DNA of 64,000 nucleotides from Gracilaria domingensis (taxonomy: Eukaryota > Rhodophyta > Florideophyceae > Gracilariales > Gracilariaceae): the NCBI GenBank assembly GCA_022539475.1, contig VCMS01000135.1, positions 80,788 to 144,787 on the forward strand, written 5' to 3'. The notes beneath the pieces were generated by a model. The model saw only the letters and a list, made by a program, of their open reading frames with translations, was not told the origin of the DNA and ran no database searches. Below, in pieces: positions 15,833 to 64,000 of the stretch. A program made the position numbers and the translations under genes. Each line of letters starts with the position of its first letter. Positions within the stretch are counted from its first letter, which is position 1.

Positions 15833-16694
15833 TGCAGTTGGAAGGAATTAGTCGCGTGATGCCCTAGCCCCACCAAGCCACTCTATACGCACAAGCTTTG
15901 GTCGTCAGCACTCGAAAAGCAGCCCTGATGAGAGCAAAGAATGCACATCGTTCAAGAATAACCAACTCGGATAGTAAAGAGTTATCCTTCAGCTACCTCA
16001 TAGCGGTGCTTTTCGAAGCCCTCTTCAGGACATTTAGGAGACAACCTGAGGGCGTCCCTACCGGTACGCCTAATTCCCAAAAATTTCTTGCAATTTGTAT
16101 GAAGGTGATTGGCCGTCTAATGCAACCGAGAAAGGCTGGGAGATGCGGGTTTGAACCCCCACAACGTGTAATGTAATTATGTAGCGCCGTACGTTTGAAG
16201 TAAGTGTTGAATTGAAGCAAAAATTTATTGGAACATATTTTAAAAATTGTAGTTTCAAATATATTTCAAAACATTATCTAGCAACGTTTGCCTTACTGCC
16301 TAATAGGGGTTTTTAAATAAGCATTCTTAGCGCAAGAGCTATACCCTTGAATGCAGACCGTTTGGAATTTTTGAAATAAGGAAAATTCCTTAGTTTCTGT
16401 ACACAATATTAATGCCAGGGCAATCATAGAGTACATGTCAGAACATAAACTCAGTCATGAAGGGCAAGAAGTTGATTCTTCCCCTTCTGCTCTTGGAGCA
16501 GATGTCGCAAACTGCGGCCCACACTCGCACTCTTGTGAACCAAGAAACGGCTCTCGGAGCCTCTCTCACAACCTCCTCCCAGAAGAGGCACTTTGCTGAC
16601 AGGGATGAAAGCGCTTTACACCGAACGACTCTAAAGCAACATATAGAGAGAAATCTGCGACCAAGTCCCTGATATAAATCTTTTTGATAAGACA
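15833..16694. other. Transition from gene island to repeats; nothing called
   Basis: AT-rich sequence, especially 16190-16430, without recognised genes. It may hold the left flank or terminal repeat of the PIF/Harbinger relic that starts near 16.7 kb, but I could not identify an inverted repeat. Confidence 0.3.
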
Positions 16695-21877: not shown

Positions 21878-23721
21878 CTAGTTGTATCGTCTACTCTCGA
21901 CGAAATCTACAGCCTCAGGTAGACCTGGGTTCTTCACTCGTACTGGCATTTCATGAATTTCTGCTGTGCGAATAGGTGTATCATCTTCATTGTGGAGGAG
22001 AAGCACCTGTGTGTTTTTCCGAACTCTTGAAAGTCCCGCATATACTTGTCCTGGAGCAAAGAAATTTGCACGAAAATCGATTACCATCTTCCGTAATGTT
22101 TGGCCTTGACTCTTGTGAACAGTGGCAGCAAATGCTAGACGGATAGAAAACTGACGCCTTCTCACTTTGATTCCAATGTACTCAAATTTGAAATCAATTC
22201 GATGTAGCACGTGGTTCTGAGTCAATTGACGATCAGAATTCATTTCGGCAATTCTGACACATCGACGAGAGACACCAGTGACAACGAACATCTTTCCATG
22301 CACGAGATGTGGATGCAGAACATTTCGTACAACTATAACTGGAACTCCAACCTTTAGTAAGAGATTGTGGGGAGGCACTCCAGTAGTGGCTTAGTTGTAT
22401 GTCACCTCGGGGCCCAGGACTGTTTGGATGCGATCTCCATGGGGAGATCTCATTGGCTCCACTGTTGTCGCTGATGGAAGATGATACTTTCTTCCAGGAA
22501 ATATTCTCAATGCAGCCTGGTTATGTTCATCATCTAATTGATTGGTAAGTGCAACGATCAGAGGATCTAGACGAACTTCTTTCATATCTTGGGAATCAAT
22601 CAAATTCCAAGTCCTCTGTAGGCTCGTTGAATCTTTGAGGGAGACATGAGTGGTAGTGATACCATGGGTGACGACCGTCCCTTTCTGATATCAAGTAGAA
22701 GTCGTGCAAAACGAAGATCATTCTGCTGACGAACTTGTTCCGTGAGACGAAGTACCTCCGTATTTCGATCCCAGAGCTCGGAATCGTACCACGGGAGTTC
22801 ACGAAGAATATTGACAGGGATCCGTCTTGCATTCTCATTTTCATCTGTAATCGTTCTTGTCCTCGGAATGACTGGTAGTAACTGCATGTAGTCGCCAGCC
22901 AACACCATAATGAGCCCTCCAGAATCTTTCCTTGGCCGTCTTAGATCCTTCAAAATGGCATCAACGACTTCCAGGAGAAGCTTAGGGCACACGGAGGCCT
23001 CGTCAATGACCAGTAATACAATCTTGCGAAGAAGCTCTGCTCTTTGAGTTCGAGGTCCATACTTTGAAAGAGTTCTTCTCTCTCTACTTTGAGAATTCTT
23101 GTCGTCGTCAACTCCAGTTCCCAGCAGACTGTGAAAGGTTCTTCCCCCCGAGTAAAGAGCAGCTGCGATACCAGTTGTAGCAGTCATCTCCACCAGTAAT
23201 CCTTGAGATTCCACAATATCCCTCAATAGCGATAGGAGATAGGTTTTTCCTGTCCCGGCATGTCCTTGTACGAAAAAGACTTTCCCTGCTGTATCTGTTC
23301 GTTCTTCCTCGGATTGTCTCTTCTTCTCCATTACAGCTCTCATTATTTTGTCAAAGACACGCTTCTGTCCATCTTTTAAGTTTGAATATCTTTCCCTGAG
23401 TACATTTTGTGATCGAGATGGATGGGCCTGTCACTTTTGAATAGTCTCTATAGTTCTGTCTACCTCACTTTGCTTGATTCCTAATTGCTGAACTGTCTCG
23501 CTAAAATATGGATGGTCTCGGATAGGTCGTCCTCCATGGCGATCTGATATCTGTATGATTCTTCTCATCAACTCTTTTCTTCTCATTGAACTGCTTCTCT
23601 CCCGCATATCTGACATGAGCGGTACTATATGTCTCTCAATCCAATCCTGAGGATTTGCACCCTGTTGGTAACATGTAACAACCATCCTGCGCAGTTCGGA
23701 CGGCGTGGAGTAGTTTCTCAC
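21878..23721 (-). pseudogene. Helitron Pif1-like helicase region
   Basis: Superfamily 1B 5'-3' helicase domain. Walker A is GHAGTGKT, Walker B is LLVIDEAS, followed by AGDYMQLLPVI. The C-terminal lobe has the HKSQGQTL motif and YAGLSRV near its end. Breaks: TGA at 23431-23433, frame change near 22603, TAA at 22391-22393. All helicase motifs remain readable, so loss of function came from the stops and not from erosion of the domain. Confidence 0.85.
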
Positions 23722-23724
23722 TGC

Positions 23725-25533
23725 TTAGTTGAAAGCCGTTTCGTATTCATTCTCGTTAACTAGAATCCCCCTTGCAATAGCCGCATCTCTGTATGACGTA
23801 TGCGTTTCACCGTGAAACTTCTTTGCATCTTCAAAAGAACTAAAAGCGGCGTTCATAAGCAGAATTCTGAGAGCAAAGAGTTCTAGATTTCCTGGTGATA
23901 CAAATCTAATCCTTGCCACAGACGCACTTTCTTCATCTCTGTCGACTATGAATTTCGGGGGTCTTCCGGAATCAAGAGAGGCATCTCTCTCTGGAATAGA
24001 GCGAGGCAGCTTGTCATAAAGACGAACAGACTCGTAATATGATAGGTAATCCAGATTAGAATACTCAGAAGGTCGCTTGAAACATCTCTCCAACATTGAA
24101 GACTTCAAACTTCTTGGTAGACGAGTGTTCCGAACTAATACTTGCCTCTCTTCTGGCAGATGAACGTCAAGAGCTTGAACGCAGAGATCAATTCGAACGT
24201 GTCTGAACTCAAACAGATTCCAGGCAGCTTCAACCGCTCCAACCACACGTGATCTCATATAGGCCCTTATCTCGCTCTCAAGTTCTCTTTCTGAGCCTCT
24301 TTGATCAGTACTTCGAGACTCTCTTGATGTAATGAATACGTCATGTTCTTTTCCAGGTTTAAAAGCATATTTCATCAGATAGGCTACTGCTGTTCCACCT
24401 TGTGTACGCTCGACGTTTATATGGGCCTTGTACTTCCTTGTCAGATCTGGATTGTACGGAACAACTTTCAAATCTTCTTCTGTTCGTCTTCTGTAAGTGA
24501 CTCTGTTTGTCAAATCTTCAATGGTTGTCTCTGGGACCACATCCATATGGTCATACCCGAATCAACACTGACCGTTCCGAGTGCGTCCCCGACAATATGG
24601 TGAATGGCGGTGGATATTGAACCGCTTCACCAATGCTCGGAGCTCTTGATCTTCTTGAGATTGTCCTCGTGGAAGCTCTGCCTTTATAAGGCTGTCAATA
24701 ATTTCAGGATCGTCCATGGTTCCACCCTCTAACCATAGAAGGATGTGGTGATGGGGTGTGTTCCTTTCTTGAAACTCAAGTTTTGCAGCAATTCCGATAC
24801 ATTTCAGGCCGAAAATAGCTTCCGAATTTTTATGAAGATCAGTCATAATTGAGTTGGCATACTGATTGTAGACTCTGGCAACCAGATCAGGTCTGTCGAA
24901 AGGTCGTGAGCGGTTTCCTTGTGGAGAAAAAGCGCCAGTGTTATCATTGTCAAGTCCAAATCTCTTCATTTCCTCTCTCCACACGTTCATTGTAACCGTG
25001 ATGAAAAATGTCGGTGAGCCCATCCTGGCAACCATTGCTTGAACATCCAAACGCTTCTGTTTCCAGTAGGCAGGTGAGTTCTTGTGGTTTCCAGGAAGAT
25101 ACAACTTCCCGGGTGGACCAAGCTCATCTGTTCCACTGTGCGTTCCCTGCTGAAGTTCCCGTTCCTCTACCATTCTCATTTGCTCAGACTCAAGGTAGCG
25201 GAGCCGTAAGTCTTCGATATTAATATAGGTTCGTAGCAGTCACTTTTGAAGCAGAGTCCCCGAGTTTAGTAATATATTATCTGTGTACAACCTCCGTTTC
25301 GTATGTTCCGCCCAAGTCAGTCTGTCGACATCAGTAATATTAGATGATGATCTAGATCCTCTTGATCTTCCCGTTCCCTCGCCTCTGGCATCAATGTATG
25401 CTACCATATCGTAAGGTAAGTGAAGATCTCCATAAGGGTATAGTAATGGGAACGCTCCCATCTCAGCAGCCTTAGAGTCTGATTTCAGACGGCGATATTT
25501 GACAGTCCTTCTCCACAGGTTTCCAGTGGACAT
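23725..25533 (-). pseudogene. Helitron Rep (HUH endonuclease) region
   Basis: Rep endonuclease of the HUH class, which nicks DNA and becomes covalently joined to it through Tyr. The segment FPLLYPYGD near the start matches the family's 'LxFPxG' block. The HUH motif is visible as NTPHHHILLWLEGG, and the catalytic Tyr motif as AYLMKYAFK, with two Tyr four residues apart as expected for Y2 Helitron Reps. Two in-frame TGA codons (25240-25242 and 24562-24564) cut it; the reading frame is otherwise continuous. Confidence 0.85.
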
Positions 25534-31258: not shown

Positions 31259-32909
31259 ATGAAAATGGCCTTGTTCGAGAGATTTGAGCACAACACAAGC
31301 TTTAAAGAGCTCCGGAACAAGTATAACGTTTCCGAATTTCGCCTCTCAAAGGCATGGAAAGCTTGGACGGTGCACTATCCCGAGTCACAGCCGCAGTATT
31401 ACACGGATATCTTCTTGCCGTATAGAGAGAATGGAGGTCCTACAGCACTCACCAAGGAAGAAGAAACAACTATTGTCCGCTCTGTAGAATATTTTGTGGC
31501 AAACAATACCCCGTTGATGAAAACTGGGATATGTGACCTTGTGCAGACGTATGTGAGCTCTCCAAACCCAGACCGTTGGCACAAAATTGGGTTCAAGGAC
31601 AACAGCCCGTCCCTTGGATGGCTTAACCGATTCGTTATCAGACATAATCTTCAGTTCATGCCTGTTTGTATAATGGAGAGCGACCGAGCAGCCCTCACAC
31701 CAGAGAAAATCGCAAGACACTTTGCGCTTTTGGAAAGCCTCATCGATCGGTACCACATCGTTGAACCTCGCCGCATATTTAATGTTGACGAGTCCGGAAG
31801 TTCGTTTTCCAAGATCTTAGGGCGCAGCTTGCGAAACGGAATTGGAAGCAGGAATTCGGTACTTATCTAGAAAAATGTTCGTGTCAAAGGTTTTTGCGAT
31901 CGTGTCACAGTTATGCTTGTAATATCGGCAGGCGGTCGAGCCTGGAAGCCTGTCATAGTCTTTTGGGGCAAACGGGGGTAATTATCGCTTTGTTTCTGGA
32001 ACGTTACAAACCCTCCATGACTTCCTACCTCCATGCTATCTCTATCAAAGAGAAATTCCAGGGGTTGATCCAGCAATCTTCTATGGTTGGGCCACGCAAT
32101 ATGTGGAAGAAACGGAGGAACGTCGTCGCAATGGAAAGCATCTTCTGATTATCTTGGATGGATATGCAGGACACGTGCAGTATAGAACGCTTCAGTTGCT
32201 AAAGGAGAATCGCGTCATTGTAGTGGCTGTGCCTTCCCATACAAGCCATATTTTGCAACCTCTTGATGTGAGTGTTTTCCGTTCGTACAAGTCCTACATC
32301 CAACGAGAGATTCATCGCGTGTCTGGGTATCGCTCTGTTTTAGATGTATTTGACATTGCAGAAGTCGTTACTGTGGCCTTATCAGAAGCATTGGTTTATC
32401 CAAAAATTCGCAGTGGATTTCGCCAGATCGGCAACTGGAACTATGAGAAGGGATATCCATGCGTGTCAGCTGTAAAACAGTCCGTGTTTCTTGAGAAGAA
32501 GGAAAATGAAGATGAACTTACATTGCTTGCGCTTGTAGACACTTTTCTTAAAAGCTCTCGTTCGTTGGTTAATGAGAGCGATGTGGACGAAACGGGGTTA
32601 GTGAAGGTGTCAACTGAGTACGGTCGTCATCTAACTGCTGAAAATGTGTTATTGGCTCTGATGAGAAGGACGACCGGTCCGCGTTGCTTCGAGGGCGCCG
32701 CAGATCTGCGCAGGCTCGCGGAGTTAGCGCCGCGTCGTGAAACTTTGTTTGCTTCTTTGAAGGCGAGTCGTTTAGAGCGACGACATATTGCTGCTGCTCG
32801 TGTTGCGCGTAATCGCGCTATTGAGGGTATGCTTGGTTTGCAAGGAATGGACACTGTTGTGGTTCAAGAGGATGAGCGCGCTAGCAGAACCGAGCAAGAC
32901 ATTGTGTGA
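31259..32909 (+). pseudogene. Pogo/CENP-B-like (DDE_1) transposase
   Basis: Tc1/mariner-superfamily transposase of the pogo/Jerky type. The N-terminal part has helix-turn-helix regions (Psq-like at about residues 8-35, CENP-B-like at about 65-140). The DDE_1 core shows the first Asp in FNVDESG, the second in IILDGYAGH and the third in LQPLDVSVF, giving a DDD triad. The C-terminal 150 residues are charged. A TAG at 31868-31870 and a one-base frame change near 31975 break it. All catalytic residues are readable, so the break is recent or due to sequencing. Terminal repeats were not found. Confidence 0.85.
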
Positions 32910-48095: not shown

Positions 48096-50244
48096 TTACC
48101 CATCAATCCTAACAAGGAATCCCTGATCGTTGGTTAGAAAGGGTATCTTGAATCCCCCGTTGAGTCGGGTCCTTATCTGAGTACAGAAAAGATCCGCGTG
48201 TTGTTCACGTATTACCTCTTCAGCGGTAATGGGTTTAAATGAGCCAGGCGGTGGCTCGACCGTTTCTGCGGAGAGAATATCGTCACAGACGTCATCCGTA
48301 ATTTCGGAGTCTTCCTCCCAGTTTTCCACCAAGAAGCATGGTATGTCGTCGTCGTCGACAGGTTTTGCTTCACCAGACGTTCCTAAACGGGAAAACGCAT
48401 CAGCCTGCATACTCAGGATGCCCCGTTTGTACCGGACATCAAAATCAAATTCCGGTAGACGGAGACGCCAACGCATAAGGCGGCCGGCCCGAAGGCTCAG
48501 AAATCTCCATAAGCCAGCGGAGAGCCGAATGGTTGGTATGTACCTGAAAATTGGTTCCCATGAGATAGGGTCTTAAAGTAGACAGCGCCCAACCGACGGC
48601 GAGACATTCTTTCTCAGAGACTGAGTAATTACGCTCATGCACGTTCAATGAACGAGACCAGTATTCAACTGGACGTCGCTCGCCTTCCTTCGAGACTTGA
48701 AAAAATGCACACCCCACTTTGTGGTCACTGGAATCAGTATCAACTTCATATGAAAGCCCTGGAGTGGGCAACGCCAAAATCGGAGGAGACGTAACAGCGT
48801 CGATTAACGACGAAAAGGCGGATGCTTCCGCATCGCCGAATGGTTCCAGTTTAACTGGCTGTTCTTTACTGAGGAGAGAGTTGAGAGGAGCTGCAGTATC
48901 AGCGAAATTCGGGACGAACCGACGGTAGACATTACACAAACCGAGAAATGATCGGAGTTCCGTTTGAGGTGTCGGATTTTTCGCTTCCTTCAACGACTTC
49001 ACCTTTACCTCGTCGACCGGGAGTTTCCCTGGGCCGATAATGTGGCCCAGGTATTTCACCGAGTCGGTAAAGAATTCGCATTTCTTGAGCTTCAAGGTAG
49101 CACCTGCGTCACGCGGAACCTCCATCACTTCCCTCACATAGGACATATGTTCATCCATACTGTTGGAAAATACGACAATGTCCTCCAAGTACACAAAACA
49201 AGTCTTCCACTTGAATCTGTCCAACAGAATGTCAATCTCGGGCTGAAACGTAGCGGGAGAATTCGTTAGCCCGAAGGGCATCCGTTTGAAACGGTAGAGT
49301 CCATGATGGCATACAAACGCGGTCTTATCGCGATCTTCCTCTCGAATTGGAACCTGCCAGTAACCCCAATTGGCGTCAAGGGCGGTAAATACTCCGGCGC
49401 TTCCCAGTGAGTCGATGTATTCATCCATTCGTGGAATCGGATACACGTCTTTGACGGTAACGGTGTTGAGTCGCCCGTAATCGATGCAAAAACGCCAAGA
49501 TCCATCTGACTTTGGAAAAATTGCAACGGGCGATGCCCGTGATGACTGAGCTGGCTCAATTACGTCGGCACGTAGCATCTTCTCGACTTGAGACTTTTCT
49601 TCTTCCCGCGCTTTCGAGCCTGCGTGATACGGGTGTTGCGCCATAGGGCGAGTACCTGGGAGCAGATCAATACGGTGCTCCGTAATTCCAATTGTTCCAA
49701 GGGAACCGTCCGACATGGGAGTAAATTCTCTGAGCATGTCTCGCAACTTCTCGCGATGAGACGCTAGGACATGGTCTAGATTCAACTTCTCTAATTCCTC
49801 AACAGGACTCTTCTGTTCTGTGCCAGGAGGCAGCGCTGATTTAACCGGATTGAACCGTCGTCCGTGACCAGTACTAACTAAATTCACCTCTTCAGTAGCA
49901 ACTGCTTCCGGCACGGCGGAGTTTCTATTTCTGGAGGTATCCGACAAAACAGGGTTTCCAGGACGCACCTCCCCCTCCTTGGCTTCGGGCACACCGAGAA
50001 CCTCGGACGTTGAGATTCTCGTCTGTAAGAGCGCCTTCGGATGCGGCAGGACCGAACCCAGTACCTTGTGTTTGACTAGCCACTGAGTGATTTTGCCAAA
50101 GTTGGCAACCAGTACCTGGAAAGGTTGATCGGGCTCGATAGAAACAACACCATTAGCTAAAGCGAGCTGTTGCTGATCGTATAACGATGAGGACAGTTGA
50201 ACTAGTCGAATTCCATGTTGTTTGGAGACGCACTGCACCCACAC
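48096..50244 (-). pseudogene. Gypsy reverse transcriptase-RNase H with altered active sites
   Basis: Open frame 48445-50244 (599 residues), extended by 48096-48476. RT blocks are clear: EHRIDLLPGTRPM, WRFCIDYGRLNTVT, YPIPRMDEY, FTALDANWGYWQVP, FGLTNSPATFQ. The active site reads FVYLEDIVVFS, so the first Asp of the YxDD box is Glu. In RNase H the TDSSDHKVG and SEKECLAVGW blocks are present, but the His-Thr-Asp-His box reads HTNHSALRWL. Both changes would be expected to abolish or cripple activity. A frame change near 48470 leads into the connection domain (MQADAFSRL). Confidence 0.9.
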
Positions 50245-50250
50245 CTGGGA

Positions 50251-51131: not shown

Positions 51132-51512
51132 CTATTCATAGTTCTTACTCGGAACACGAGCATGGTCAGCTTGTGACAAGGACTCATACCACCCGATAAT
51201 TATCGGTAACTCCCGAGCGGGCAACATGCACACAGGTGCAATATGACCGCGTCGGTAACAAATATGACAGATGGTCGTCAGCGACTTACCGAAAGATCGA
51301 TTACCATCTGGCCGTCGTTGCGGTTGCGCACTCACCCATCCTGGGCGTGAGAAACGGCTGCCGTTGGTCGCGTAAGCGAGTGGAGTGGCCTGTACCCCTG
51401 TTCCTCCTATATAGAGTGCGGGGTCACCTTCCGAGGTCAGAGTCGACGACGACGGAATGTCAGAAGACCCGTACGAATCCGGAGCACTTCCAGCGAAGTG
51501 GACGTTATCCAC
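51132..51512 (-). pseudogene. Gypsy gag C-terminal part with zinc knuckle
   Basis: 126 residues, Ser/Arg/Gly-rich, with CHICYRRGHIAPVC near residue 85, a CX2CX4HX4C knuckle that binds nucleic acid in gag proteins. No gag core is found upstream; the DNA beyond 51512 is non-coding, so the element is truncated or rearranged at its 5' end. Confidence 0.65.
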
Positions 51513-51990
51513 GTCTGTGTTTCCGAGATGCTAGTTTACAGTCCAAAAATCGCAGAAAAAAAATGCTAGTATTTCATATGTTAAATTGCGATTAGTGGAA
51601 GTTTGAAGTGGAAGAAAAACTAGAGTAAACTCCAGATTCTGCAGTATGGTTTGAATGGAATACTAGGCTTGACTTTCAAACTACGAGCTATTTCTAAGAA
51701 ATATGAAAGTTGCTAGAATCTTAGAACTAACTTCCATTTCTGCTAGTTCACTAGTACTACCGGTCCATCGGTCCAAAAAAGCCATCGGTCCGAAAGCACG
51801 GTGGAAGTTCCATCCTAGCAGAAATGAATGTTATTGATGCAGTATTGCAGGTTCATGCAAGGTATAGCACCACATGAAAACAGGTCCAAACCGGTCATCG
51901 TACACATCTCCACCCTACTTCCCACCCCCGAAAATCCATTCTGACATCACTAAAGAAGCCCTGTATCATTTGGAAGACAATTACGCATCG
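51513..51990. other. Spacer with short repeated words
   Basis: AT-rich, no frame of note. The phrase CATCGGTCC occurs twice within 30 bases near 51763-51791, a small direct repeat. It presumably holds the boundary between the minus Gypsy element and the KDZ-type region. Confidence 0.3.
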
Positions 51991-53345
51991 AAACTCACCG
52001 AATAGATACCCTGAAAATGCTCTCGTTGCCCTCAATGTAGACATCCCCTTGGTTAGTTTTCTGTTGCCTAGTCTCTTCGTCCTTCCCAACATGGAAATAA
52101 ACACACTTACCTAAACATTCTTCGCCATCTTCATCTCCCCAACTCCCTCGAAAACATCTCAACTGCACAATTTCCAGCACCGCCACCGATCCATTGCCAT
52201 CCAACGCACCTGCACATGCACAAACACAAGCTAGTCAAATACTCCGTTAGATACTTTTCCATCTTCGACACTTTCCCAAATGCACACTTATCTACTTATC
52301 ATGTGTCCCTACCTCACCAATAGCCTCGAAAACACGAATCAAACTGTCCCGAAAATCCTGCACATACACATAAAACAGTAACCAGTTAGCATTCTTATCA
52401 GAACTCGAACAAAAAACATCTCGTACTTACCCCGACGCGTACCTTGCCATCCACACCGAACTCTGACGAACAAGAATTTGGAGTAATGGCAAAGAATGAT
52501 TACCTGGAAGGCCTCCGTTGAGGTAATCATTCTTTCCATGACCCCAAACTCTTGTTCGTCAGAGTTCAGGGTCATTAGCATGATTCCTCTAGAAACCCAA
52601 CCACCCAGCCACATCGTAACCATTCTCCCTTATCCACTTCACCTCAAAAAACACGTTACACATAGGAAACGAAGTAAACCACCGCCTTCCGCCCCATCCC
52701 CATTCCACTTCCAATTAAAGATCACCCACGCTATAACTCCATGAACCTATCGCGCTCATTCTCGCAAACAGCCCCCGCCGCGCAGTCATATATCCCGTTA
52801 GCTAACTCTTCGCTCTTCGAAACATTCTCAAATGAACACTCATCTACTTACCATGTGTCCCCTACCTCACCAATACCCTCGACATCACGCATCAAACTGT
52901 CCCAAAAGCCCTACGCATACGCATACAACATTATCCAGTTAGCATTCACATCAAAAGTCGAACAAAAAGCTTCTCAAACTTACCCATAGGCCCCCGCCCA
53001 AGACATTCACGCTAACCTGCTTCCAAATCTTCTCCGTGCGTCTCGCAAAATCACGTAACGTTCCGCAGTTAGACTTCGCAAACACCATCAGCATCAAAAG
53101 GTCTCACTTACGTTGAACCCATTCAGTACGCATCCCAAACATAAAAAACCTGAACTACTCCGGTTCCAATCCAAAGATTCCGCACGCTGCAGCTTCATGT
53201 ACCTGTCGCGCTCATTCTCGCACACAGCCGCCGCCGCGCAAAAACACTGGTCAGAGTCGCGCATATTCGCCATATCAAACATTTACGCCTCGACTTACCT
53301 GTTTCGCACGTTTCACATCCCAGGACAGGACTCTGAGAGGCAACG
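51990..53345 (-). other. Cluster of repeated mini-exons with GTAAGT donors
   Basis: On the minus strand, GTAAGT-like donors recur at short intervals (near 52110, 52425, 52848, 52976, 53108 and 53295). Segments are duplicated: the block at about 52270-52440 recurs at about 52810-52990 and partly at 53060-53115. Each of the two full blocks contains a 45-base candidate exon between an AG and a GTAGGG donor; they read AFWDSLMRDVEGIGE and DFRDSLIRVFEAIGE, clearly related. A second exon type (VCENERDRYMKLQRAE and VCENERDRFMEL) is also duplicated near 53210 and 52755. I read this as a multi-exon gene, or relic, grown by tandem duplication. The protein is unknown. Confidence 0.4.
52458..52567. repeat. 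Near-perfect 47-bp-arm hairpin
   Basis: The left arm 52458-52505 (starting GAACTCTGACGAACAAGA) and the right arm 52521-52567 are inverse copies with about four differences, separated by a 15-base loop. Transcribed, it would fold into a miRNA-precursor-like stem. It lies inside the mini-exon cluster, and on the minus strand one arm ends in a CAG|GTAATC donor-like site. Confidence 0.75.
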
Positions 53346-53352
53346 CCACTGA

Positions 53353-53738
53353 AGCTCACAGAAGAAGAACTTCAATCGCAGCCACACTGTACGTCAATCA
53401 TCGCCGGCCGCGTAATGCGCCATCCGCGAAAATTTTTGAAAGTTGTGTTCAGAAAAGTTCGAAATCCTCCCCACACTGAAACATGCAGGAAAGGTACGTA
53501 AACGATCACGTGCACGGTGGAGTTGGTGGCGTATAAACACACTTTATACTCTCCCCTGCAGGGTGCTCCAAGATTCTGCGCCGCACCATCACCACCGACC
53601 TCTCTCTGCAAGCAACTTCCCTCACTACTTTCATACCCTCTCACCCAGCCATGCACAACTGTTGTTTCCCCCGCTGCTCATTCCATACATAGTCCCTCGC
53701 CTTTCTCGCCCAGCATCAGAAGCGATGCAGACACAGGA
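53353..53738. promoter_or_regulatory. Divergent spacer before KDZ-like transposase
   Basis: Lies between the minus-strand exon cluster and the + transposase and probably holds both promoters. C/T-rich toward the transposase start. No other feature. Confidence 0.35.
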
Positions 53739-56700
53739 ATGACCCAAACCCGTTTCTCACCCCAACACCTCATCGAGGATCCCACTTCCCTCCCCGAACC
53801 AAGCGCCGCAGACTCAACAACACCGAACCCCCTTCCTTCCCCCCTCTAACCGCCCGTCCGATAACGTAGCACTCGCAGACGACGACCCTTATCTCCAGGA
53901 ACAGCTTGCTCTCTCCCTACGCTCATCCGACGCAGCACAGATACTCAGCCCGCATCACCAACTCGCCTCCCAGTCCCCTTCCACAGGCTCAGGTAACGCC
54001 TTCTCCCCCTCTCCACCCTCACAGAAAGACCACATCCATAACCTCGTCACCTACATATCCTCCATCGCCACAAAACTCGGAAAGCGTTCTGCTGACGAGC
54101 TCATCAACATTCTCAAGCAATCCACCTTTCCCTCTTCCCTCTTCCAGACCTCCATCACTTCCGCTGCCGAATGTCTGAAACTGCACTCCAAAATCTTCGA
54201 AGAAACAGTCAGCTCCATTGGGTTCACCTCAACCATCATCCATGACAAAAACCATAACTTCTCCGCCACCCTCTACCTCAGGGACCCCGTTCAGGTTCTC
54301 CTACAACAACTTCGTCTCGCATCCCACAGCAACTCCTTCTTTCATCCAGTCAAACAAGCTTCAAGAACAGGAACTACCGCAATCGCACACCCTATGGCTT
54401 CGGAACTCGGCCGCCATGTCGTCCCGACTATCAAGAGGCATATCATGCATTCTCCGGACCCCGACGTCATCTGGCACGATCCCAGTATCACCGGCACAGA
54501 CTCGTTCGTCGGCCTCGTTCAACTATATTCAGAAAAGTGTTCCACCTGTTTGAAAAGTTCTTCTGTTACGTCGTATTCTCTTCACATCACCCTCCTCAAT
54601 TTCAATGACTCCTTCCGCAGAAAGTGCATCACGCAGAACTACACACTCGTCGGATAAATACCCACATCCTTCACCTCTGACTCGTCCTCCACTGACACAG
54701 ATTCCTTGGAAGTCGCTCCCTCAACCCCCAGCGTGACCCGCATTGTGCGCATGCAGCTCGTCCAGGAGTCCCTAGAAACCATCCTCAAACCTCTGTATCA
54801 TATCGGTATGAAGGGTTTTTCCTTCCGCGACGCCAAAGGAGTCCTTCGTCAATGCCATCCAGTCATCTCCAACTATAGCGCTGACATCCCCGAAGCCAAG
54901 GACATTCTCGCAGTACTTCATGGCACAAAGCCAAGCAAACCCTGCCACCGGTGTCTCCTCCCTCGTTCACAACTCAACCTCTACCAATCTATTCTCACAG
55001 AGCGAACCCTCTCACACACTTTGCAAACCAGAAAAAGACATGATGACCTACTTCTCGAGGCAGATTCTGCTCTCCTCTCCCATAGACCACGGGTTGCAAG
55101 GAATCTCAAAGAAGAAGCTGCAGAACTTCTCCACTCCACCTCTCTCTCTCCATACAAGTCCTTTCTGGAATCTTACCCTCTTCTCAACATCTCTTCACTG
55201 GTCACTCCTTATTCAATCTTCTCCTTCGAGCCCCTTCACAACTTTCACCTTGGCATCTCTAAACTCATCAAACTCGCCACAATCGAACGCCTGAAGTCCG
55301 ATTCTCTTCACACTTCCGTGGGCTTCAATGGATCCTCCAGGTCGTTTCGGTCCATCAGAACATCTATTCTTACTCACGCCAACTCCATCCTAGCTGACAT
55401 CGAACGCTCGTTTCCGGCTCCAGGGCTTCATATTGATTTCTCGACATCTGAAAAGGGTAAGTCTCTCAACGGCTTCTTCACCACTGACGGAATCAGAGGC
55501 ATGCTAGAAGCAAAGGACTATCGCGCCCTCGACATGGTCTTCCCCTTCATCGGTGCATTCTTCGACCGTTGCTGCGGTGAAGTATCTCCCGCCCCAATAA
55601 CCACCATTTTCACCTCTTACGTCGATCTCGTCAATAACATTCTTCACTACCACACTGCCCTAGAATGGACTGATGATCGCTTACGCTCTTTGGAGACTCT
55701 CATCAAGAACTTCAAGACTCAAACTGTCTCAGTTTTGGGTCCATACCAGGCCTCCAACTTTCGTACTCTCAAATTCCATCTCCTGGATCACATCATTCCA
55801 GACATCCGTCGATACGGAGGCCTCCATTTCGGTGATGCAGGTGTGTACGACCACGCGCATCTCCTCTTCAAGAACCACTACCGCCGTACCTCTCGCAGAA
55901 GATCAACTGCGCATAAGGAAACAGTGGACTCAATCCAAGAGTCGCAGGATTTCTTACACTCCATCTCGGTAAGGAAACACTTCTCCATGTCTACCAACTC
56001 GGCCAGTCGTTTGTCGCGGCGGTGTCCCTCCATGGTTCGTGATGGTAGTTCATTCTCCCTCTTCGACATCATCACGGCCGACAAGTATCTACGGTCCCAT
56101 CCAAACGTCCCGTCATCTGCTCTCACAGATTTGTTCTCCAAAACTACATTGCAGTTCATCAACCAAATCTCTCGCGACGCTCTCTCTTCCTTCCGTACCC
56201 TAAGCTTAGAAACTCTTCAACCGTTGGACAACCCCCATGACATCAAAATCACCGTCGTTAACTCCGCTTACATTTTTCTGGATTCTGCCCCTCGCTGGAT
56301 GAATACGATCGTCACTTTCAATGCATTAGACTGCGAGAGCCGGATGTCTCTTTGTGTGAACGTATTTTTGCAACCACTTCTTTCGGCCCTTCCAAGTCCC
56401 CAAAATTCTCTACCGTCCTGGTTAATGGAACTCCTCCTCCCGGTTGTGACTTCCCGACCGCATGGGTATGCAAAGTCTTTGCCCTGGTTCGCTTTAGCAG
56501 ATGTAACCAAAGCAATTCCGATTCTGAATTTGCCTTTGTTCGCTTCTTCGAGGTAACGGAGCCGTTGGATAACATTGACGAATCCTTGAACTGCATTTCC
56601 GTCCGCTGGGCCACGGATGACGAGGAAGAACACACATTGCAAACCTCCAATTCTCTAAAACGGTCAACAACTGCATCTGTATCCCCATGGTTCGGTCTCG

Positions 56701-56915
56701 TCCCATTCTCTTCGATCAAAGGCTCGGTACACATCCTCCGACAAAACTATCCCGCACCCCCTTTTTCCCTCCATTGCACTGGAAGTTCCACCGATTCTAC
56801 ATTAACAGATTCTATCGCAATCCCCGAGCTCGTTTACACTACCATCCAATCACCAAACTTTCGTAACGTAAACCATAATGCATTAGTGACGTTCTATCCA
56901 ATTCTCCTCATGTAA
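53739..56915 (+). pseudogene. KDZ/Plavaka-like DNA transposase
   Basis: About 1,050 residues once frame breaks are ignored. Likely start: ATG near 53739, with a frame change near 53830. The region to 54657 holds SFVGLVQLYSEKCSTC and the helical blocks before it; TAA at 54655-54657 interrupts; 54706-56556 is a 616-residue frame with DIPEAKDILAVLHGTKPSKP then Cys-x2-Cys, YSIFSFEPLHNFHLGISKL, FRTLKFHLLDHIIPDIRRYGG and HAHLLFKNHYRRTSRR. These match, from memory, the blocks of fungal and algal Plavaka/KDZ transposases (ClvP motif; H...H...IxxxG; K.HYRxTxRR). A frame change near 56340 leads to the C-terminal part ending 56915. Element ends were not identified. Confidence 0.65.
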
Positions 56916-56956
56916 TCCTTCTTGCACAGACCTTTCCCTCACATCCCTCTCTGCAG

Positions 56957-59350
56957 TTATGTCGTAGAACATACGGTCTCCCCGACTGCAGCATCCAACA
57001 TAGCAATCCAGTACAGCTCCGAGCTTCTCAGAGATCTCTCCCATAAACACATCTTCTCGGACAGCAAGGTACATTTTCCTTTTCGACGGAATCCAGTAAG
57101 CCACAGTGCCCACCGGTCATCATTTCCATCCCGCGCATCTTCACCATTCGATGGGCCATTTCTGAACTCTGTTGGATAACTCTGCTGCATGCGGACCCTC
57201 ACGGTCTTCAGTATACTCTCAAGTGCCAGTGGTAGATATTTCCCGAACAAGTTGGAGAACAACACTTGTGTCTTACCACCTCTCCCTCGTTCAGACTCTG
57301 TCGCGCGAGCAACGGACGCTATCCAGGCATCAAGACGTGCCAGATGCATAATTGTTCCATCCACTGGATCCCTCTCTTCGGTATTCCTCGAACTTGTTTG
57401 TAAAACGTCGTAGCCCATGAACTCACGCAGCACCTCCAAGCTCAGGCTGAACCGAAAAAGCAAGTCACATGGTTCATCTTCGGTTGCATGATATGGGTTA
57501 AAGCCCGAGAAACATATATCTTCTACCTTCTGAGTTCTCCACGACGACAGAATCTCACATCCATTTGCATCTTTGGGTAGGAGTTTTTCACGTACCCTCT
57601 GGTTTGTATTTCATACTTGTTCTGCTCCCTTTCATCATTTTTTATCGGGGTCCTTACAAGCATGTCGTAACCTACTCCCATCAATAACTTCTCCTTCGCA
57701 TGGCGTTTTCGAACACCTATTGAATCACTTAAAGCCTGTTTCAACCTTCTGCGCAAACAAATGTCGTGCGTTAACTGTTTCACACAGTCATCTTCCATTT
57801 TCATTCCTCGGATAGATTCCCAACGTGGCTTCATTACCTCCGTCTCCACAATTTGCATCAACAAATGGTCGCCTCCACCACGTACGGATGGCGTGTACGC
57901 CCTCATCTCCATGGCAAGATCCATTGGGCACCGTGGCACTATCTCCTTCCCATCAACAACCAGCACACTGTCGTCTTTCTCAGGTCCAACTGTCTCACTT
58001 CGGTTGCCCCAGTTCCTTGCCGGTATACTCATCTCGAAGCATAGCTCTCTTGTCTCGTCTTTGGCGTGTTGAAGTATGGAGTCATAGACGGTCTTCGCAA
58101 CACCAACAAACTCGTCGTTCACGTCAATGTTGTACCGCTTCCTGCTCTTGTTACTGTCACGTTCTTTCCTTTTCCCTCCAAGTCTAAGAGCCTCTCTCAA
58201 AGAGTGTATGAGAACCGTTTGTTCTCTGACCTTAACCTCCGTTGCTCTATGTTCTTCTGAGCAAGTCGTACGCTCATTTTCAGACTTTGCTTGTCCTCTA
58301 TTGTACGATACAGATCTCCCTTCAGTTTCCCGATCTTTTCCAAAAGCTCGTATCGCGGAGTAAGGGATTCCTCTTCATCTTCTTCCATTGCACCATGCAG
58401 GGAAAAGCTCCGTGACAAAGCACCACGATCAACATCTTTATCGTTCCATACTTCTCTACGGACGTTTGCTATGACAGATTGCCGATCGTTCCCCACCCGT
58501 CTATTCCCATTTCCATGGTTCGTCCTTCTTCTGACCTGATTGAAGCTGTTTCTCTGTGACTCACCTGTGACTGGTGTGGTTGTATCTCGTCTTCGTCTTC
58601 GTCTTCCTTGTGTCTGGACCCAATATGAGGGACGGAATCATGCCTGCCTTCATGGGAGCCATATGCGTTGCATTTCCGGCGTCCACGTTATCGTTCGCCT
58701 CCACATTATCCTTGTCCTCGACGTCACTTGGGATATCTACTGCGTCCGTGGACTCCCGCTCCTTTCTTCCACTGCCTTTCTTGGCACGAGAGACACCCTC
58801 ATTCATTTTCTCGTTCCTCTTCACTCTTCTCGAATCATAACTGTTACGTTCTGTTCCGGCAGCGCTTCTGGGTATCTCCCTATCCCCAGGTTCGGCTCTA
58901 GGTTCGGCTCTCACGATGGCGTAATCCACGGTTTCCATCTCCGCATTGTCATCCGCAGTTCTCACCTTGTCGAAAAATCATCGATACGAGGACCTTCTGT
59001 TCCTCCACTGCCTCTTGTCCTCCTTACATTCTGACGTACAGCCGTTCTTCTCTTATTTCTTTCATCGCTTTGACATCTACATTTCCATCATCACTGACCC
59101 TTGGCTCTTCCATTGCAGCCATGTGGCGTGTAACAGGCCCACGCATTGCACTATCCTTGGCTTGAACGGTTTCACTTACTGTGCGTTCCGTAGTGCATGT
59201 GGAAGCTCCTGACCTCCTTCTCGGTTTTACTTCCGATACTGTAGATGAAGATTTTGGTTTGCGAAGTCCAGCACGAGGTGCTCGGCCTCGGCTACCTCTC
59301 CCATTAGTAACACTACTTCGTGAGACGACCGCGCTCCTACGTTTGGCCAC
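56957..59350 (-). pseudogene. Unknown charged protein, broken into several frames
   Basis: Minus-strand pieces in order: 59024-59350 (basic, Ser/Arg-rich), 58561-58965 (acidic/basic repeats), 58197-58496 (coiled-coil-like, Leu-Leu-Glu-Lys-Ile-Gly-Lys-Leu), 57523-58200 (225 residues) and 56957-57463 (168 residues). They adjoin almost without gaps, so one protein of about 780 residues with frame breaks is likely. The N-terminal third is low complexity; the C-terminal half looks globular (Cys-Phe-Glu-Met...Trp-Gly). No family recognised. It ends 42 bases from the KDZ-like transposase, tail to tail, so it could be the element's second gene. Confidence 0.45.
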
Positions 59351-59890
59351 CCCAGTATCCCAGCGCTCCGGCGGTACCGATCCTTTCGCGGTTTACCACC
59401 TGCATGCTCCGCACGTTGAGGGGCCATCCGAGATCCTTCGGCCTTCGTGCGCGGTAGTATTACGGAACAGATATAGAAACGTGAACGATACTGAAGGTAT
59501 ATGATTGAGAGTGATATGTGAGGGTCACGTACTCGGTGTGCAGGACTGATATGTGAAGGGGAGGGGAATTTAACCTCGTACTGCATATATGGAGAAAAGC
59601 ATTCTGCAGCATTTGTGGCGGATCGGCATTCAATTTTTGGACCTTTCCCGGGTCCATATTCCGGACTTGGTCCGATTTCCCGGATGTTGCGCCCTGCATA
59701 TACAAGTACGGCACTTTCAACGATCTTTCATACCACTATATGCATCAATATGTTACACAGTACAGCTTGAGTGTACATATGAGTAGTATTTCTGCAATCA
59801 TAGCACAAGTGTTCAATGCAATTTACTTCAACAAAAAGCTTTTCTCACTACATTGAGCCCATACGAAGTTCAAGGACATTGTCTGAGAAC

Positions 59891-60480
59891 CTAGGTTAAC
59901 CTTTCCCAAGGATATGTGGGTCCATAGTCAACGTAAATTTTGTCGTGCTCCTTAATTTCCCTTGAGGCCGTGACTACGAGGAGTCTGTAGTTCTCCAAAA
60001 GCCCCAAAGTTGTAGCCTGATACTCTGTGGGCTGGCGAATGAATACATTTGGTTTGCGTGCCATGTTAGAATCCATTTCTTCCAATTCCTTGTCCTCATC
60101 ACCTTCACGATATGACGCGTCATTGATATAGCCCGCTACACAGAAGGAGCAGGAACTATCCAGGCATGACCAGCGTTGACTTCAGTATCATAATGCGGGA
60201 GAGTGTTGTACATTTGCCCCTTCACCCTCACTTGCATGCAATACTTCCTGAACCGAGATGCAGTGGCCCCCAGCATTCCGTCTCCATACGTCAAATGTGT
60301 GGTATTGCGTCGGCTTAGATCATGATACACCAAGGTCCCATAAAAGTATCCAATAACCTCCCCTTCGGAAAACGCCCTACTCGTAAATACTCCATTTCCA
60401 CTTGCTGCATGTTTGATATTCGACTTCTTCACATAGAGCCATAGCGATGTCGCCTCGACAGAGAGTAAAGTGTGACTGTC
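59891..60480 (-). other. SET-like domain at C-terminus of fusion
   Basis: Begins GNGVFTSRAFSEGEVIGYFYGTLVY, the SET-N 'GxGvfa...GevIgeY.G' block. About 190 bases later, in a shifted frame, GYINDASY takes the place of the family's 'NHSCxPN' neighbourhood (many SET proteins of this subgroup have YINDA), and NVFIRQ follows. The last block TASREIKEHDKIYVDYGPTY corresponds to 'I..GEEL..DYG..Y', which ends the SET fold. The canonical NHxC motif is not seen, so lysine methylation is an inference. Confidence 0.6.
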
Positions 60481-60849
60481 CAACGTAGTCATCTTCCCTT
60501 GTAAGGCAAGTGGCCACTCATGGAACGGTTTCTCTTTGTACGTAGTGATAAGACCAGGTTCATTCCAATAGGTGGATAGGTACGACATGATATGGAATGG
60601 GAAAGATTGGTACGATGGGAATCCCTTGGGTGCATTCCATATAGTCGAAGTCTTTCGTTTCCGTTCAGGAAATTTGGCATCCACCACATAAGACGCTTGA
60701 ACTACCTCATTCGTAACCGGTTCTTTCATCTTCAATTCATTGCGCCACACCTTTCTTGCGTAATGCACAATAGCATTGTGCTTGGCATGAGAGAAACACT
60801 GCTCATCTTGCTCACATCCAATGAAACGCCGAGGCCCCTCAATATCCAT

Positions 60850-61600
60850 ACATGCCAGCGCGCACGAGAACGTCCCGGAGTAGAGATCAACCACAACATC
60901 CCCGGGATTCGAGAACCTCGCTATCAGCTCCATCAGTAGCTGCCTCGACTTTTGTTCTGGACGAGCCTTCGCGGTTCGAATTCTTCTACCACTCTTCACT
61001 CTCCATCGGAGACTCTCCCCAGGCGTAAGATTTGGAACCTGGTCAATGATAGAATAGTGCCCAGGATAGCGAGCTGAAACGTAGTTGAAGTTCTGATAGT
61101 TCACCATTACCTTCTGTTCCGCGTACGGGTTTCCATTCCTCACGCCATGCACGGCGTACTCCGTCGCCCCAAACAGGCGAGTAGTATTACGCGCAGGGTT
61201 CTTCAAGGGGTTCGAACGAGAACGAATGAAGTTCATGGGGTCGAATCCACTAAGAATGATGCGGTTTTCTTTCCGCTTGCGTCCTCCGACTTGTGCTCTC
61301 GCAAAATCTCTTCCCAGTCTCCAAACTGGTCGATACTGCAGAACAAAACGAAATGTCCTCCTGGTCGAAGCATGGATGCCATGATGTCCGCAGTATTGTC
61401 CATATCATCGTCAGCCAATTCGTCGTACTCGCTGTCGCGGATGCCATATGGTGGGTCTGTGAGCACGAACTGAACGTTGCCTTCCAAAGATGTATCCGAT
61501 GGGAAGATAGTACCATGGGCCTCCACCAGTTCGTCATATCCGACACAATGCATTGAGAATTGCTTCTCCATGCTTCTCGCACCACATCTAGAGCATTTAA
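60850..61600 (-). other. Permuted DNA methyltransferase domain within fusion
   Basis: Upstream of motif IV is FDDTRTLNALDVVREAW, after it LRPGGHFVLFCSIDQFGDW (the strand-helix region after motif IV), then a target-recognition-like segment, PEQKSRQLLMELI (motif X region) and the motif I glycine loop with Tyr-Ser-Gly-Thr replacing the common Phe-x-Gly-Ser/Thr-Gly. These features follow the beta-class order closely. Frame changes lie at about 61600, 61575 and 61235. Confidence 0.7.
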
Positions 61601-63049
61601 CGTGCGCGTGTCATCAAAGTCATGAGGGGGGAGAACCCCATCTGGAACGTTATCTTTCGCCCCAACAGAGGCACCAGGTGTATCACCTTCTTCATTGTCG
61701 CTATCGAGGATGACGATGACATCGGAGTTAACTGAGCTTTTCCCTGCGGCGTTCCTCTTGGAGGAGCTCGGAATCTGTATCGAGTCCTCAACCTTAACCG
61801 TGACGGTATTACTTCCTCCATCCTGCCCTGAAGGAGCGGCCCTAGGGATAAGTCGAGATGGTTGGAGTTATGTACAGACATCGCTTGACGAATAGGAGAC
61901 ACGTACTCTTCGGAGAATACATTGAAACGGGGTGGTACTCGTGCGGGGCGGCCAGGTCTGAAGCTTTCCAACAAATTCCATCTTGACGTTGGGGACATTT
62001 TGTATAGGAAGCCATTCAACACAATCTTGCTGAAATCTGCCAAGAATTCCTTTGCCAACTCCCGTAAGTTGGCGTCGATAGTATCCGGAAGAGTATGAAC
62101 CCAAGAAACGGTGTCGTTCACATCCAACGTGGGTTTCAGTTCTTCCCCAACGTATGAAAAGCTGACTCCGGACTGTACCCAACAGAGCGGGATTCAATGA
62201 CATGGAACCCAAGCGACTTCTTTTCTACAAGCAGGTATGGCAGCAACATCTGCTCACCATCAAAAAGCCTAAGGTTGAGGCAAAGAAATCCCATCCCTTA
62301 CAAATCGTTTGCACTGCATGTGCCATCCGTCTCCCGTGCGTCTCATTCGAAGCTATGTAGCCGTCGACGAACTGCACAGCTCTATGGGTTCCCTTCCCGG
62401 TCCTTCCTCTCTTCGCCGCTGGGAGATTTCTCTCCGAAGTTATATGCTTCACGAAAGAGAGATAGAGTAACTGCTGAAAACGAGTGGGAGGCCCAATCCT
62501 GAACGTAGTTCTCTTCGTCTGCTTACTGCCTGGACCATGTCGTTTGAAAAGGTCATTCCAGAAAGCCCGTTCTATGAACGAGTTACCGTTGTCGACATCC
62601 TTTTCAAGACTCAGGTAAACAAATCTCTCACGCGCCGATCAGAATTCTCGTCGTCTAGATCAGTGATACGCGTATATTTGTAGACCCTGCTCAGAAAACG
62701 CACGTCCAGACAGATCTTCGTGAGTTCTTTTGCGGAGTAGTTTTGGAAAGGACCCTTGACCGCAGTGGTGATGAACTCTCGTGCACATGCCAGGTGTTCA
62801 CGGTTTGATACAGCGTATTCCACAACTTCCGTGTACCCAACTTCACGCGATTACCAGTACCACTTCTTGAAGCGGCATACGCATCTCGCAACTCAATGAA
62901 CAACCCCCAACATTTCAAGAAACGCGTTGCCATGCTGGCTGAATCGAACGACGCGCTAGAGGATGCCTAGAGGATACCGTGCCGTGGTTCTCATCGGCCA
63001 GCACACTCTGCTTAACAGTCCGAGGAGCGTCATTTCCGGTGGACGCCAT

Positions 63050-63325
63050 GTAAGAACTGAGAATCGGAAAGGACGCGAAGTAAACGAGTATTGTGAAACG
63101 GTAGAAGTTTCGGAGATGTTTAAATGGGTGGGAAGCGTCGGAAACGTCGGGAAGCGTCGGAAACAATGGTGGAGAGCGCGGTTGCGACGGATTACCGAGA
63201 ACTGAGCGGGTAATGAAATAGAGAGACGAGAGTGGGATCTAAACACATCAAACCGGTGGGGCACCTCAGTATGTGCAGTGCATTATATGTCTAGTATGTA
63301 AAACCAACGTAGAAAACACTGGTTC
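63050..63325. promoter_or_regulatory. Upstream region of methylase-SET gene
   Basis: About 280 bases between the fusion's start codon and the foldback element. GGAAGCGTCGGAAACGTC-type direct repeats occur at 63131-63163 (GGAAGCGTCGGAAAC twice). Presumed promoter. Confidence 0.35.
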
Positions 63326-63960
63326 GTACATCTTTGAACATCGCCCGAGCGCCGTGTGGGAACCGCGGTTCGCCGAGTTCATAGCCGAGATCATAGCTAT
63401 GATCTCGGCTATGAACTCGGCGAACCGCGGTTCCGGCACGGCGCATCTGACGAAACGCCACGTGTATACCGCCGAAAGGACCCCCCCTGAGGACCCCCCT
63501 GGAGGACCCCTTGCTGGCGTTTATGTGGGCAGTGACGTCGAATAAACGGGAGAGCGATGGACACGCGGATGAACTTCGGACAATTGTGTAGCAAGCGTGA
63601 AGACGGAGGGGAAGGGCTTGAGGAGGAGAGACGATGCGGTGGGAGCGGAGCAGCGCACGGAGGGCGGCGGCCATCGACGGGGCGTCACTTATTCACTGCC
63701 CACATAAACGCCAGCAACACCACCAGGTAGTGGTGCGTGTGGGTGAGAACAGGTGCTTTGGTGCGCATTGTGTAGTAGAAGTGGTCTCCAGGGGTCCTCA
63801 GGGGGGGTCCTTTCGGCGGTATACACGTGGCGTTTCGTCAGATGCGCCGTGCCGGAACCGCGGTTCGCCGAGTTCATAGCCGAGATCATAGCTATGATCT
63901 CGGCTAATGACTCCGGCGACCGCGGTTCCACACGGCGGCTCGGGCGATGTTCAAGATGAT
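63326..63960. mobile_element. Foldback element with nested 76-bp palindromes
   Basis: The left arm (about 63328-63535) and right arm (about 63690-63957) are inverse copies of about 200 bases. Outer ends share GAACATCGCCCGAGC; inner ends share GCTGGCGTTTATGTGGGCAG. Each arm contains a 76-base palindrome: 63359-63434 is perfect (centre ATAG|CTAT, ends GGAACC...GGTTCC); 63854-63929 has a few changes. The right arm carries about 75 extra bases near 63715-63790. The centre (63540-63690) is GA-rich and non-coding. This is the structure of a foldback transposon or a large MITE. Confidence 0.8.
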
Positions 63961-64000
63961 GAAAGGCGAGGACAGTGGTGTCAACCAGGACGGAATCAGA

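Follow-up and report, generated by a model that had tools for sequence, protein, structure and literature searches.

The closest described systems are transposons that carry a modifying enzyme of their own. Plavaka and other DNA transposons of fungi bear TET/JBP genes (Kojima, 2025; PMC12730594), and in the available portion of that source the proposed targets of the enzyme are the silencing marks on the element. The element described here resembles the fungal ones in combining a Plavaka-type transposase with a co-carried DNA-modification enzyme. It differs from them in that the enzyme is an amino-methylase fused to a SET domain rather than a 5mC oxidase, in that no C5-methylase was found in the host, and in its termini. 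Retrotransposons of dinoflagellates and charophytes likewise encode a DNA methyltransferase (PMC5890265), but these are retrotransposons with C5-methylases, and the term "SET domain" is absent from the main text of that paper as available. In Phytophthora, the DNA transposons HarbingerS and MuDR carry SET genes (as cited in PMC12730594), but the transposases there belong to other superfamilies and no DNA methylase is mentioned in the accessible part of the source. For the giant Plavaka repeats of Amoebidium, the excerpted text of PMC11244446 reports tyrosine recombinases and not a methylase-SET gene. Bdelloid N4CMT also couples a bacterial beta-type amino-methylase with a chromatin domain, and its eukaryotic host lacks C5-methylases; unlike the present protein, N4CMT is described in the sections available as a host gene with a chromodomain reader instead of SET and with 4mC as product (PMC8885841).

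The methylase half is similar to the beta-class N6-adenine methylases CcrM, MboIIA and M.BceJIV in fold (that of the relative P0012) and in motif order, but these are prokaryotic and have neither a SET domain nor a large N-terminal region. Eukaryotic adenine methylases were reportedly reviewed by Iyer and colleagues in 2016. TET/JBP oxidases, C5-methylases and SET genes on transposons are already in print, separately, as far as the available texts extend; what would be new here is the pairing of methylase and SET in a transposon carrying its own epigenetic enzyme. Among the literature matches listed, which mostly exclude subscription papers, a methylase-SET fusion on a DNA transposon was not reported, and no paper naming PF01555 and PF00856 together was found in literature of the same coverage. 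If the assignment is true, a mobile element may write DNA and chromatin marks by itself, and the presence of both domains in one transposon protein would directly couple DNA and protein marking. The system would also test whether mobile elements can own the chromatin around them, and, with no C5-methylase recovered from the host genome, it would provide a clean test of 6mA or 4mC as a real eukaryotic mark.

The methylase-SET gene and its intact copies

The stretch of DNA analyzed (the window, 64,000 nucleotides) corresponds to C135:80788-144787 of a 77.9-Mb genome, and its last base is also the last of the contig. The gene and its parts are located as follows.

59891..63049, minus strand: methylase-SET fusion gene, 1055 aa from the ATG in the intact copy C12, frame-broken in the window
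61563..63049, minus strand: N-terminal region and linker, from alignment A1, mostly helical in the model of the relative P0001
60751..61562, minus strand: beta-class amino-methyltransferase domain, with DPPY near 61446-61457, RPEQK, and the SAM motif D.YSGTF
59921..60438, minus strand: SET domain (PF00856, 2e-6 in L005), with GNG.F, GEVIGYF, YINDASY, and DYGPTYPW

The original prediction was of a permuted, bacterial-type N6/N4 methylase followed by SET blocks in a single coding region. Its coordinates agreed with an ATG at 63049 and a stop at 59891-59893 on the minus strand, and all of the motifs that it named were present. The frame in the window is broken, the intact C12 protein being recovered by tblastn as seven pieces in shifting frames. 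In 3177 aligned bases, the window gene had nine single-base deletions relative to the C12 gene and differed from it at 18 substituted positions. A longer alignment of 10.7 kb contained 101 mismatches, with one-base gaps numbering 22 in the window and 4 in C12, and just 6 of the 22 were sited in homopolymers of 3 or more. The broken frame may reflect either decay of this copy or assembly error.

At least 109 matches to the gene were found in the same genome, with 99 of 744 candidates scored. The fusion was sought in intact form and was found as single open frames of 1118 aa in C12 and 1121 aa in C157. L005, comprising 958 aa of the C12 frame, scored above the Pfam cut-offs for both N6_N4_Mtase and SET. 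The two halves are one polypeptide, with the methylase preceding SET as had been predicted.

Assignment of the methylase half

The methylase half was assigned to the beta-class amino-methyltransferases (PF01555) from its profile, the position of DPPY before the SAM motif, and a CcrM-like fold. L005 residues 431-662 matched N6_N4_Mtase at 54.9 bits against a cut-off of 26.7 (1.5e-14), and the family profile A1 matched solved beta-class DNA methylases at 2.7e-12. DPP was kept in 39 of 39 readable alignment rows. The SAM motif reads G-T-F, the canonical form being G-S-G. Structure prediction, which had been suggested as a check, gave for the relative P0012 a fold whose best matches were CcrM, MboIIA and M.BceJIV, and the PDB fold matches listed were all methylases, over model residues 97-381. 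In L004 the methylase alone scored in Pfam, since that frame is cut before the SET end. The MT-A70 family (PF05063) was absent from the Pfam matches of the methylase-SET protein at E values up to 1, and the N-terminal region and linker matched no known family in Pfam. The DPP(Y/F/W) motif together with the nearest folds suggests, though not decisively, that adenine is the target base.

Assignment of the SET half

A SET score at background had been named as a result that would count against the fusion; in the intact copy, L005 residues 790-949 matched PF00856 at 28.6 bits against a cut-off of 22.4 (2e-6). Among the relatives, P0012 and P0017 were over this cut-off and P0001 was under it (20.5 bits). 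The A1 profile matched the solved SET enzymes KMT2C (2.2e-5), EZH2 (6.3e-5) and KMT5A (1.2e-4), the best of which, KMT2C, we take to be an H3K4 enzyme. The SET call is based on these profiles because the SET stretch of L005, used by itself in a single-sequence PDB search, gave nothing significant (best match SETD8, E 0.14).

The SET asparagine was kept in 35 of 38 rows and was followed by aspartate in 31 of 38, giving N-D and not the N-H of NHS, while the final tyrosine was present in 33 of 36 readable rows. The family as a whole therefore departs from the complete NHS motif plus C-terminal tyrosine of a canonical SET lysine methyltransferase. Six relatives (P0028, P0029, P0030, P0032, P0038 and P0040) combined a strong methylase match with a weak or partial SET match. 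From this and the N-D motif, it is conceivable that in certain lineages the SET half serves for binding.

The transposon

The following features lie around the gene within the same repeat.

51512..51525, plus strand: left terminal inverted repeat (TIR), CGTCTGTGTTTCCG in the window, pattern match C135:132299
53538..56860, plus strand: Plavaka transposase gene, approximate bounds from the intact 1110-aa C12 frame, interrupted in the window
56888..59570, minus strand: ORF2, approximate bounds from C12 frames of 356 and 556 aa, broken in the window
63334..63954, no strand: two imperfect palindromes of 94-96 bp, mutually inverted, at 63349-63444 and 63844-63937
C12 78034-81529 and on; L105:43-4020, plus strand; L109:919-4896, minus strand: ORF5, in the element's right half, past the window

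The transposase belongs to Plavaka (PF18759). This profile matched window positions 54658-56553 at 3.8e-14 and the C12 transposase at 6.1e-24 (85.3 bits against a cut-off of 26.3); in the genome-wide Plavaka search the window gene was matched at C135:135283-136047 (window 54496-55260), with 1 internal stop.

The ends of 11 copies carried a 15-bp TIR, CGTCTGTGTTTCCGG at one end and its complement at the other. The 14-base TIR pattern had 75 exact matches genome-wide, whereas its reversed control had 2, and the 11 end pairs were chosen from the 75 as facing each other 13-24 kb apart. The element in C12 extends from 65379 to 85355 (19,977 bp, with 15-bp TIRs); the window carries the left 12.5 kb of the element, its right end lying past the contig end. 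Plavaka transposons have TIRs and a target-site duplication of 2-3 bp. Here a 2-bp flank duplication was observed in five of the 11 pairs (TT, TA, TA, AT and AA) and was absent in six, among which C12 and C233 have an identical right flank. The C61 pair, also one of the six, was probably mispaired, as the subterminal sequence is identical at both ends. The fungal sub-lineages PlavakaA and PlavakaB have the termini TGT..ACA or CATCA..TGATG in the part of PMC12730594 available; these were not matched by the ends of the present element, CGTCTGTG..CACAGACG.

Likeness between copies over window 51.5-64 kb indicated a repeat unit spanning the transposase, ORF2, the methylase-SET gene and the two palindromes. 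The C233 copy matched window 51511-64000 at 98.2%, and C12 and C61 were 99.6% identical over 11.9 kb, a near-identity that reflects recent spread of the element. ORF2 was partly collinear in the diverged copies C157 and C324, and neither its window pieces nor the 556-aa C12 piece had a Pfam match over cut-off. The arms of the palindromes (63334-63497 and 63791-63954) are 91% complementary, and in C12 this stretch lies between the methylase-SET gene and the divergent ORF5, with GATC present twice in each palindrome counterpart.

The transposon-rich setting that had been predicted was thus made specific, the gene lying inside a TIR-bounded element with a Plavaka transposase. Whether the gene was transposon cargo or a captured host gene had been left undecided. 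The TIRs, the transposase and the pairing described below show that a Plavaka-type DNA transposon carries it as cargo.

A second repeat group and its pairing with Plavaka

Searching the genome with a SET profile yielded 311 candidates and 150 scored matches. Eight of these, at E values of 2.2e-11 or lower, were taken as host-type genes, and the remaining 142 were weaker, with a repeat-like uniform score. One of the 142, L115 (C171:16900-20300), encodes an intact 1055-aa methylase-SET protein having 40% identity to C12 in the common core. From this one copy read, we infer that the other 141 are also methylase-SET genes, and this second group is probably more numerous than the first.

In a Plavaka search of the genome, 123 of 672 candidates were scored. 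A Plavaka match was located within 8 kb of 23 of the 142 second-group SET matches, L115 among them, in every case downstream and on the opposite strand (convergent), and the distance was 4459-4496 bp in 21 of the 23. For the first group, 20 of the first 47 of the 109 matches had Plavaka within 8 kb, 19 being convergent and one upstream, and for the host-type SET genes the count was 0 of 8. Low pairing fractions are expected, since most of the Plavaka candidates were unscored. The diverged methylase-SET repeat of the second group therefore adjoins a Plavaka transposase in the same orientation as the first.

Relatives, descent and selection

Two protein searches yielded 39 database relatives (P0001-P0017 and P0019-P0040), from which a short bacterial-type methylase (P0041) and a relative of ORF5 (P0018) were left out. 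Both Pfam domains were listed for 18 of the 39 in the precomputed Pfam column. With a SET profile built from nine relatives, SET was detected in 38 of the 39, including 29 of the 30 outside the build; it was only partial in P0037, P0038 and P0040, and P0039 stops within the methylase. Thus, 38 of 39 relatives have both domains, in part or in full. No case of the two halves encoded by separate genes, which would have argued against the prediction, occurred among these 39 proteins of similar length, a search range in which short separate genes could be missed.

In a tree of 40 sequences, with P0037 and P0039 left out as short, C12 and C157 grouped with P0001, and L115 grouped with P0002. The fusion is therefore deduced to predate the split of the two groups within one genome. 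NG86 dN/dS values between C12 and C157 were 0.095 for the whole gene, 0.12 for SET and 0.11-0.18 for three transposase pieces; these are approximate because dS was saturated (NG86 1.3-4.4 where defined, and undefined for the methylase segment) and YN00 gave no estimates for many segments. The methylase-SET gene is under purifying selection.

Three sources for the fusion were considered and rejected. A prokaryotic origin was not supported, as all 47 distantly related prokaryote loci matched the methylase part only (query residues 88-433), and the SET part begins near query residue 484, beyond this range. When viral contigs were scanned with A1, the 1 locus matched was L033, an unrelated methylase of phage type (residues 21-347) without SET. 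One relative, P0017, has an extra N-terminal ParB/Srx-like stretch (residues 1-140, with RDGAHR), and a phage ParB-methylase was considered as its source; the 11 phage records, however, matched only the methylase part of P0017 (residues 633-893), and records H2 and H3 have their own short methylase genes.

ORF5

ORF5 is divergent from the methylase-SET gene and is broken in C12 but forms one 1326-aa frame in L105 and L109. It had 31% identity to its one database relative, P0018, with LHTDF and GRGD..HAG conserved. The HxD...H pattern at its C terminus is presumably like that of 2-oxoglutarate Fe(II) dioxygenases, whose site reads HxD...H...R in a double-stranded beta-helix, and its DG.HR motif, which is common to ORF5, P0018 and the N terminus of P0017, is one that we take to be like ParB/Srx proteins. 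The ORF5 and P0017 motifs were aligned in register by hhalign with a probability of 6% and an E value of 0.0057 in a single comparison. Nothing significant was found for ORF5 in Pfam, PHROGs, NCBIfam or the PDB, and no ParB match was obtained in Pfam for ORF5, P0017 or P0018. The C-terminal piece of ORF5 had no match in Pfam, nor did P0018, and in the PDB this piece had none at E values up to 10. ORF5 gave no TET/JBP match, the one Pfam match being unrelated and under cut-off. The likeness to ParB/Srx proteins and to dioxygenases is accordingly treated as a lead rather than an established result. In bacteria, fusions of a ParB domain with an adenine methylase are described in the portion of PMC5512222 available.

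The host genome

The C5 DNA methylase profile (PF00145) had no match in the 77.9-Mb genome, while it matched 10 of 14 control genomes. The host is likely to lack a C5-methylase, although this is short of proof because the controls were prokaryotes and introns could hide such a gene. The MT-A70 profile gave 0 matches in the host genome and none in the control genomes either. Red algae are described as without zf-4CXXC_R1 proteins in the accessible text of PMC10538959. The genome contained 14 phycobilisome-linker matches, all over cut-off, some of them on large contigs (such as C25, 814 kb), which supports a red algal host.

Proposed role of the methylase-SET protein

The methylase-SET protein is probably the transposon's own DNA- and chromatin-marking enzyme, with a self-protective or self-regulatory function. 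In the specific form preferred here, which is given about an even chance of being correct, the gene is a structural gene of the Plavaka element whose product marks DNA and a chromatin protein in favor of expression or transposition of the element. By analogy, the methylase half would carry out N6 adenine methylation of DNA and the SET half would methylate a lysine on a chromatin protein, with the element's own copies as the likeliest site of both. The outcome would be a chromatin state owned by the element and favoring its expression or transposition, while ORF5, from its HxD...H C terminus, could oxidise or remove the marks. Bearing on a permissive role is the finding that the best SET profile match was KMT2C. 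A permissive or protective role is favored because C5-methylation seems absent in the host, because eukaryotic 6mA accompanies permissive, H3K4me3-marked chromatin (PMC12695648, from the text available), and because evasion of silencing is the role proposed for TET/JBP enzymes on fungal transposons (PMC12730594, likewise). A more elaborate version, in which adenine methylation and an H3K4-like mark are placed on the same nucleosomes and edited by an ORF5 oxygenase, giving permissive chromatin in an alga without cytosine methylation, is put forward tentatively and is rather unlikely in its entirety.

The marks could instead be repressive: placed on the DNA and histones of new copies, they would hold copy number down and so let both host and element survive. 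This would parallel bdelloid N4CMT, which marks transposons for silencing. The copies are numerous, however, and some are nearly identical, so any restraint must be weak, and selection would seldom be expected to maintain self-restraint in a parasite. This reading was deemed unlikely.

The protein could also act as a switch for transposition, methylated terminal or internal sites altering the binding of transposase and the SET half methylating the transposase or another element protein and not histones. Dam methylation alters transposase binding for IS10. A switch would be consistent with the near-constant distance between the methylase-SET gene and the transposase in both groups and with the paired GATC sites of the C12 palindromes between divergent genes. 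The GATC link is nevertheless an observation on sequence, and no finding connects the SET domain with the transposase; this possibility was likewise considered unlikely.

That the gene is a passenger, a host or viral fusion gene carried along without doing anything for the element, was judged to be very improbable. Gene pick-up by transposons does occur, the SET half is weak in some relatives, and free-standing fused genes may exist among the 39 database relatives. Against this, dN/dS is near 0.1 across diverged copies, and the pairing with Plavaka is found in two groups whose read members are only 40% identical in the core. Finally, an artefact in which two adjoining pseudogenes were read as one gene, as the several frame breaks of the window copy might suggest, is refuted by the single open frames of C12 and C157 and by the fused relatives in the database, and was given practically no credence.

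Other features of the window

No Rfam matches were obtained in the window. Fragments of other mobile elements were observed at 22600-25239 on the minus strand (Helitron type, with PIF1-like helicase and Helitron_like_N), at 31959-32909 on the plus strand (DDE_1 transposase) and at 48445-50250 on the minus strand (retroelement reverse transcriptase and RNase H). A DUF6816 protein was matched at 14954-15847 on the minus strand with an E value of 7.3e-39.
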